From: Crossiella sp. SN42
GTDB taxonomy: Bacteria; Actinomycetota; Actinomycetes; Mycobacteriales; Pseudonocardiaceae
Assembly: GCF_023897065.1 (NCBI RefSeq)
Contig: NZ_JAMHIV010000035.1
Coordinates: forward strand, 1 to 64,000
Direction: 5' to 3'
Length of the DNA stretch: 64,000 nt
The notes beneath the pieces are model-generated. The model was not told the DNA's origin. It worked only from the letters and a program-made list of their open reading frames with translations, and did not search any database. Below, in pieces: positions 58,297 to 62,759 of this stretch. Numbering within the stretch: position 1 is the stretch's first letter; each line of letters starts with the position of its first letter. The position numbers and the translations under genes were made by a program.

Positions 58297-61619
<3,323 letters not shown>

Positions 61620-61647: not shown

Positions 61648-61809
61648 AGGACCTGTGCGAGAAGTCTCGTGTGCGAGAGCCGTGATCGAGGTGGTCCCTG
61701 GCGGTGCGGCCGGGCCACCCTCATACCGGACGTAGTCGGGTGGCCCGGCCGTGCCGCCAGGGGCCGCCTCGGCGCGGGTATCGTGCGCGAGACTTCTCGC
61801 ACAGGTCCT
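61648..61809 (+). repeat. 162-nt near-perfect inverted repeat (candidate structured RNA or palindromic element)
   Basis: Left arm 61648-61720 and right arm 61738-61809 pair over 73 positions around a 17-nt loop. The outer 22 bp (AGGACCTGTGCGAGAAGTCT followed by CG) are perfect. Of the remaining differences, nine are transitions, and every one is a U-G or G-U pair when the + strand is read as RNA. Two true mismatches (61677, 61679) and one bulge (61685) remain. Read on the minus strand the same nine sites would be A-C or C-A mismatches. No gene or transposase is inside. It lies between the hypothetical gene upstream of ligA and the end of a LysR gene. Confidence 0.9.
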
Positions 61810-61833: not shown

Positions 61834-62745
61834 TCACCGGGCCGGGCGAGAAGCTCTGGTCGCGACTGCCAGCAGGGCTGCCGCCGGTGGCGCGAGCGCC
61901 CGCCCGGCGGGCCACACGGCGCGCAGCTGCCGCCGCAGGTCGATCCCGCTGACCGGCACCTCGACCAGCCGTCGGTCGGCCAGGTCGGCCTCGACCGCGA
62001 GCACGCTGAGCACCGCCGGGCCGGACCCGGCCGCGACCGCGCCGCGCACGGCCGTGGTGGAGCCCAGCTCGACCAGTGCCCGGACCTTACCCACTCCGGT
62101 GCGTTCCATCGCCCGTTCGAGGGTTTCCCTGGTGCCCGAACCCCGTTCCCGGACAACCAGCGGAGTACCCACGAGCTCGGCCGGGCCAACCGGTCGTCGC
62201 CGTTTCGCCCACGGATGGCCGGGCGCGACCACCACGGCCAGCCGGTCCTCGGCCACCCGGCGGGTGCGCAGACCGCGCGGGACCGACGGCGACTCGACGA
62301 AACCGAGGTCGACCTCGCCGCGCCGGGCCAGCTCGGCCACCGCGGCCGAGTTGGTCACCTGCAAGCCCACGTACAGCCCGGGGTTGCCGCGGCGCAGCTC
62401 GGTGATCCAGCCGGGCACCAGGTGCTCGGCCACGGTCATGCTGGCCGCCACGCTCAGCTCGGCCACCCGGCGGGCGCGCAGGGCCTCCGCGCCGTGCAGC
62501 AGCACGTCCAGTTCGGCGAGCACCCGTTTGGCCCATTCGGTGACCATCTGGCCGGACTCGGTGAGCGTGGATCCCCTGGTGCTGCGGTCGACCAGGGCCA
62601 GCCCGAGCCGTTTCTCCAGGGTGGCCAGGCGTTTGCTGGCCGCGGGCTGGCTGATGCCCAGCCGCGCGGCGGCCTGGCCCAGACTGCCCAGCTCGGCGAG
62701 CCGGACGAGCAGGTCGAGTGACTCGGGGTCCGGCGGTTTGCTCAT
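61834..62745 (-). CDS. LysR-family regulator (YeiE/CysB-like position)
   Basis: This 303-residue regulator has an N-terminal helix-turn-helix (GSLGQAAARLGISQPAASKR, LATLEKRLGLALVDRSTRGS) and a LysR effector domain. It diverges from a YeiH-type putative sulfate exporter gene, the same pairing as yeiE/yeiH in Enterobacteria, where YeiE responds to sulfite. That parallel makes control of the exporter likely. ATG at 62745. CATAA-N7-TTATG overlaps the start. Confidence 0.92.
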   Translation of the reverse strand: MSKPPDPESLDLLVRLAELGSLGQAAARLGISQPAASKRLATLEKRLGLALVDRSTRGSTLTESGQMVTEWAKRVLAELDVLLHGAEALRARRVAELSVAASMTVAEHLVPGWITELRRGNPGLYVGLQVTNSAAVAELARRGEVDLGFVESPSVPRGLRTRRVAEDRLAVVVAPGHPWAKRRRPVGPAELVGTPLVVRERGSGTRETLERAMERTGVGKVRALVELGSTTAVRGAVAAGSGPAVLSVLAVEADLADRRLVEVPVSGIDLRRQLRAVWPAGRALAPPAAALLAVATRASRPAR

Positions 62746-62759
62746 AACCAAACATTATG
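62743..62759. promoter_or_regulatory. candidate LysR operator
   Basis: CATAA-N7-TTATG is a 5-bp inverted repeat in an AT-rich island overlapping the LysR start codon, 56 bp from the divergent exporter gene. The arms fit autoregulation but are short. Confidence 0.3.

Follow-up and report, generated by a model that had tools for sequence, protein, structure and literature searches.

The 64-kb stretch of Crossiella sp. SN42 DNA analysed here (64,000 nucleotides, referred to as the window) carries a 162-nt hairpin at 61648..61809. The hairpin sits between two minus-strand frames and its plus strand is antisense to both, as the original prediction had stated. To its left, a minus-strand reading frame with no Pfam match (60948..61619) begins with an ATG at 61619, 28 nt from the element; to its right is a LysR-type regulator gene (61834..62751, minus strand), which has a TTG start at 62751 in the ORF list and a stop 24 nt from the element. 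No TA was seen on either flank of the window copy. The whole element copy (61648..61809, plus strand, 162 nt) begins with A and ends with T, is aligned end to end by the covariance model, and measures 160 nt when its terminal A and T are assigned to the target duplication. A scan of the window for inverted repeats with arms of at least 25 nt and a spacing of up to 400 nt ranked the two halves of this one stem at the top.

RNA folding yields a single stem of 73 pairs, 64 of them Watson-Crick and nine G-U, and every position listed in the original prediction was recovered. The G-U pairs involve a left-arm T at 61670, 61672, 61683, 61686, 61692, 61695 and 61705 and a left-arm G at 61673 and 61706; mismatches occur at G61677/A61780 and G61679/G61778; there is one bulge and a 17-nt tip; and none of the 73 pairs is A-C. 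With short flanks, the plus strand folds at -161.8 kcal/mol (z = -18.7) and the minus strand of the hairpin at -135.2 kcal/mol (z = -12.85), with 0 of 200 shuffles as good in either case. The left outer arm (61648..61669, 22 nt, plus strand) lies where an IS5-type element has its terminal inverted repeat (TIR), and the right outer arm (61788..61809, plus strand) is its exact reverse complement. The inner left arm (61670..61720, plus strand), delimited by the fold and by aligned conservation, contributes the left-hand partner of every one of the nine G-U pairs and is followed by the tip (61721..61737, plus strand), a three-pair UAC/GUA stem with the loop CGGAC, and by the inner right arm (61738..61787, plus strand), delimited by the fold. 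The UAC...GUA of the tip is among the most conserved columns of the family alignment. Fold and alignment also agree on a bulged A in the left arm (61685, plus strand) and on the G of the G-A mismatch (61677, plus strand), the partner of which (A61780, plus strand) is nearly invariant among 50 copies; a standard pair is absent from these two columns in 24 of 26 aligned copies, and they hold G-A in 20 of 25. Against Rfam the hairpin scored at best 30 bits, below the gathering score of 90 bits of the microRNA model concerned, and five copies gave 0 matches.

A DNA search with the window hairpin returned 39 matches in its own genome (9.72 Mb, 82 contigs). At 27 of these places, lying in both orientations, folding gave long hairpins with family cores of 162-164 nt, most starting with AGG and ending with CCT, and with 6-16 G-U pairs each on the stronger strand, neighbouring pairs included. 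A covariance model (R1) built from 26 own-genome copies (alignment A1, 26 of the 49 own places) gave 90 rows in this genome with both strands counted, from which 49 places were collected, short variants included and L006 (truncated where its contig stops), L028 and L029 left out. The original prediction had looked to the terminus as well as to the full element as a means of finding relatives; the full element leads to the 49 places, whereas the exact 21-nt terminus of the outer arm, with up to three mismatches allowed, matches only the window copy in its own genome, so that the family would have gone unnoticed in a search by terminus only. Together with 90 places from relatives the collection comprises 139 places, including 135 near-full-length copies of 156-167 nt; the element is without a transposase. 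All twelve contig ends read in the own genome (G000; L237-L246, L253 and L254) break 28-81 bases into a copy; the repeat breaks up the assembly, and more than 49 copies probably exist.

The family extends well outside this strain, as a repeat of soil actinobacteria. R1 gave 41 rows in a genome of the same species (G055), 34 in G016 and 29 in G086, and within the host family, with the own genome counted, it has matches in at least 51 of 150 genomes and at least 18 of 46 genera. A second model (R2), built from 50 diverse copies, has matches in at least 10 of 396 genomes sampled from the phylum, again counting the own genome; these figures are lower bounds, 19 candidates per genome having been scored in the host-family scan and seven in the phylum scan. 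An exact-pattern scan of named genomes returned 89 stretches, and the hosts among 80 of them are Lentzea, Pseudonocardia, Streptomyces, Crossiella sp. S99.2, Rhodococcus rhodnii and Actinocrispum. Of these 80, 65 hold a whole R2 match (in L315 away from the pattern), seven are cut by the stretch end, one is partial and seven are without a match at the threshold. Variants were also encountered: a second subfamily has ends like AGTGTCCTGAGTCGG (L127-L133, L135, L140, L141 and L143), and shortened hairpins of 80-115 nt occur at L155, L144, L143:2910-3002 and L148, with the outer stem kept and the tip region absent in L155. At L134 (G000 C14:108356-112489) two oppositely oriented hairpins stand about 1.4 kb apart.

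Mobility of the family is supported by comparison of insertion sites. When the joined flanks of 27 own-genome copies were searched in congeners, 23 of the 27 sites (10/14 plus 13/13) were contiguous without the full hairpin in the same-species genome G055, one of them at 100% identity over 221 nt; L008, L024 and L025 were half matched there and L020 was unmatched. The window site itself is without the hairpin in all four congeners searched (G055, G086, G108 and G016), with small local differences (small indels). These hairpin-free sites, and the many copies, bear out the mobile palindromic family that had been proposed. The target is in most cases a TA, frequently within CTAG. Insertion is clearly between T and A of CTAG at L005, L011, L012 and, as read in G108, G086 and G016, L024; other clear targets are CTAA (L007 and L013) and CTAC (L003), with an ATAA target at L002. 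A 2-bp TA target duplication, which is equivalent to an A...T unit placed between T and A, is clear at L003, L005, L007, L011, L012, L013 and L024, and no TA was found at the G055 junction of L004 (also in G086), L021, L026, L116 and L118. Over the 139 places, the commonest bases to the left of the core are C (98) and T (89), and those to the right A (82) and G (78).

CTAG reads as a stop codon on both strands and the TA is duplicated, so insertion leaves neighbouring stops intact. By simple GC3-based gene calls, a flanking gene ends exactly at the boundary TAG at 56 of the 139 places, on both sides in 11, and the restoration of stops by insertion suggests an explanation for the accumulation of copies at CTAG stop codons. 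A vertically inherited intergenic palindrome or bidirectional terminator would account for the many copies at gene ends and for the 36 of 139 places that lie between convergent genes. We regard this reading as extremely improbable: 23 of 27 sites are hairpin-free within the same species, which disfavours vertical inheritance, homologous copies stand at scattered sites across genera, and the window copy lies between two same-direction frames.

Several sites carry further traces. At the G055 site of L014 (L233, 5620720-5620939) 16 nt are left, equal to 6 nt from the start of the element and 10 nt from its end; this remnant can be folded as a small hairpin and marks the deletion of a hairpin. The G055 sites of L016 and L017 hold 12 and 19 extra nt, respectively. 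In three cases (L130/L065, L019/L164 and L156/L095, the last with a shorter aligned flank) one site carries hairpins of different subfamilies across species, a pattern suggestive of repeated insertion there or of replacement. The sequence TAGGGCGTGTCCTAG occurs outside any hairpin at L248 (G000 C1:377400-378800) and L252 (G000 C56:261300-262500), perhaps as the footprint of a lost element or as single ends.

The outer arms resemble the ends of IS5-type elements. The pattern TAGGNCNTGTC finds many hairpin ends and, in addition, one pair 951 bp apart on contig 45; its 44 and 54 matches are exceeded by those of the reversed control (78 and 81), so single matches to it mean little. Enclosed by this pair is a 947-bp element, L236, which lies between TA and TA, has the ends GGGCGTGTCCTCAAAG and GGGCCTGTCCTCAAAG, and contains two overlapping reading frames that match DUF4096 (PF13340; IS4/5-type transposase) and DDE_Tnp_1 (PF01609) above the cut-off. 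Relatives of its first frame are present in four of five genus genomes, own included. In G016 there are 11 equal-scoring transposase matches, and the copies read have the TIR GAGCCTGTCCTGTAAGTC in CTAG. Thirty-five DUF4096 loci were examined for TA-bounded inverted repeats, 30 from 13 genomes and five from the genus (three of the 30 repeat G016 copies already in the genus set), and 15 of the 35 have them. In the 933-947-bp elements, 12-15 of the first 16 TIR positions are identical to hairpin outer arms, where shuffled ends average 8.4-9.9; the observed agreement was reached by 0-1 of 300 shuffles except on one side of L276 (28 of 300). Six of the 15 ends (L382, L393, L395, L401, L261 and L259) are without a match to hairpin arms, and some of these six may not be genuine ends of an IS. 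In many cases the arm that matches best is in another genome than the IS, so any correspondence between a given IS and a given hairpin type stays putative.

It might be argued that the hairpins are MITEs of another TA-target family of the IS630/Tc1-mariner type, which inserts at TA and would account equally for the TA insertion. The matching TIRs, however, belong to DUF4096/DDE_Tnp_1 elements, IS5-type elements being those searched, and we consider an IS630/Tc1-mariner origin very unlikely. The original prediction had also offered movement as hairpin RNA or single-stranded DNA; TA-type insertion and outer arms matching IS5 elements are explained by ordinary DNA transposition, and that part of the proposal is not supported.

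Pairing within the family is constrained, and the constraint is strand-specific. In the 26-copy alignment, 97.4% of 1975 cells are paired and 40 of 76 pairs have changed on both sides, values reached by 0 of 500 shuffles, and pairing falls to 36-42% if the partner is shifted by 1-3 columns; the hairpin family is a case of covariation beyond column composition, on one strand. It had been reasoned that a plus-strand structure should not leave A-C differences as frequent as G-U ones in other copies. Between the left and right arms of 135 copies (135 of the 139 places, four shorter than 155 nt being left out), with the strand of each copy set by the better model score and pairs set by RNA folding, we counted 1265 differences of G-U type and 64 of A-C type, besides 557 other mismatches, so that the refuting condition does not hold. 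The G-U type is the more frequent of the two in 133 of the 135 copies and the A-C type in 0. The same asymmetry holds among 42 disjoint close pairs of copies (84 of the 135; equal length, at least 80% identity): the one-sided changes comprise 183 Watson-Crick/G-U and 14 Watson-Crick/A-C, a comparison in which A-C cells without a pair in both copies may be missed and Watson-Crick to A-C changes are not, together with 44 Watson-Crick/other mismatch and 17 G-U/other mismatch, and the double changes comprise 150 from Watson-Crick to Watson-Crick and 14 others. The two parts of the stem behave differently. The outer 22 pairs have 112 double changes against 25 one-sided changes to G-U (the other one-sided changes there being 14 other mismatch, five A-C and one G-U/mismatch), while the inner pairs have 38 double against 158 G-U changes, with nine A-C. 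Arm positions 1-22 are mostly Watson-Crick paired despite varying letters, position 10 in 135 of 135 copies.

Could these patterns arise without selection on a folded strand? If the plus strand underwent directed deamination (C to U, A to I) in an exposed hairpin state, and symmetry were restored by template switching between the arms, G-U pairs would accumulate as a mutational bias. Both types of change expected from one-strand deamination are present, as 132 of the 183 Watson-Crick/G-U changes involve G-C and 51 involve A-U (92 and 91 on the two arms), and the excess of double Watson-Crick changes over one-sided ones in the outer 22 pairs is what arm copying would leave. Against this stand the 150 compensated double changes, 70 of transversion type, that preserve pairing, and arm copying would also wipe out the inner G-U pairs. 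The G-U excess, moreover, varies little with gene orientation: where a gene reads into the plus strand (65 copies) there are 608 G-U and 25 A-C differences, and where the left gene points away (51 copies) there are 498 and 27. We therefore hold a mutational origin of the bias to be unlikely. Sense readthrough by the host was rejected as a cause of the strand bias, which is independent of gene orientation.

Folded single-stranded DNA is recognised in the IS200/IS605, REP/RAYT and integron attC systems, and one strand of the present hairpin might be recognised in the same form, the bias then reflecting G-T tolerance in a DNA hairpin. The conservation of a bulge and a mismatch in a strand-specific hairpin would fit such recognition. 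The flank preference, however, is symmetric (CT on the left, AG on the right), unlike that of any single-strand transposon known to us, and the matching autonomous partners are DDE-type IS5 elements; this explanation is, in our judgement, quite unlikely.

The constraint acts in place. By flank comparison, hairpins were found at the same site in different genomes, and seven such shared sites, with L155/L114 (unequal lengths) and sites of different subfamilies left out of the count, hold 19 Watson-Crick/G-U changes, two A-C, two other mismatch, one G-U/mismatch and four compensated changes; two of the seven pairs have no change in any pair. A same-species pair has a clean compensated change at position 44/120, T-A versus G-C. 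The ratio of 19 to two implies that the constraint acts after insertion, with gene conversion between copies as a possible alternative source of the pattern. The plus-strand structured RNA of the original prediction gains statistical support from strand-biased covariation in the aligned copies, and its transcript stays putative.

We consider it probable, on sequence comparison, that the family is a non-autonomous IS5-family (IS427-like) MITE whose inner hairpin is under strand-specific, RNA-like constraint; it very probably moves in the form of DNA, through the action of IS5-family transposases. IS5-family transposases would act in trans on the outer ~22 bp, which would be terminal inverted repeats drifting with the transposase, both ends changing together, since TIRs have to match one another as they track it. 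The plus-strand fold of the inner hairpin of ~118 nt would be maintained after insertion in either orientation to genes; the plus strand would be transcribed at least at a low level, and the folded RNA would be the selected form. Our best guess is that the putative RNA is double-stranded, either processed or bound by protein, and insulates neighbouring transcripts. The G-U pairs would keep the RNA stem and make the DNA palindrome less perfect, maybe, we would guess, less unstable. More tentatively, and with somewhat less than even confidence, the element can be regarded as a mobile RNA gene, a structured RNA of ~118 nt that spreads in actinobacteria inside exchangeable IS5-type ends and whose fold is selected at each site independently of the neighbouring genes.

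Small bacterial repeats are often taken as inert transposon leftovers for which RNA folding is merely predicted. In the present family a large number of independent comparisons between paired copies indicate a one-strand fold that is kept after insertion within a mobile element, and functional RNA inside MITEs becomes a directly testable question. The change of both ends around a kept core further suggests that the element could follow different transposases.

Among known systems, the IS427 group of the IS5 family is the closest in its ends. Group members tabulated for Paracoccus are 832-865 bp long, with inverted repeats of 13-21 and direct repeats of mostly 2 bp, some elements of the group having two overlapping ORFs and a programmed frameshift (PMC3281130). 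TIRs, a 2-bp duplication and, in the partner IS, two overlapping ORFs are shared with the group; the hairpin differs in being without a transposase and palindromic throughout, and the partner IS is longer (933-947 bp). ERIC/IRU, Correia/NEMIS, RUP and YPAL/RU-2 are MITEs of ~100-200 bp, often with TA ends, whose transcripts are predicted as long stems (PMC2229807, PMC10969869), and they agree with the present family in size, TA ends and long predicted stems. Arm covariation and a strand-specific G-U bias are not described for them in the portions of these two papers available, and the present family, unlike those MITEs as portrayed there, combines outer arms that vary in step with an inner hairpin conserved across genera. 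From ERIC/IRU, a 127-bp unit of enterobacteria, it is set apart by its length (~162 nt) and its actinobacterial hosts. QMITE1 and QMITE2 of Coxiella burnetii, according to excerpts of their description, are likewise MITE families of ~50 members with stable predicted transcripts, three of which are known as sRNAs (PMC5896051); they are set apart by that description, in an unrelated host and, within those excerpts, with no covariation test. REP elements share the character of dispersed extragenic palindromes, and the excerpted account gives them 20-40 bp and, in most cases, a GTAG or CGTC tag (PMC3733652), whereas the present unit is ~160 bp long with TA-type insertion and IS5-like ends. Among the matches listed in open-licence text on MITEs, palindromes, IS427/CTAG and Crossiella, the excerpts returned do not describe the family. 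It is of a known kind, a bacterial MITE, to which it adds one-strand covariation, coordinated change of the two outer arms and a core shared across genera.
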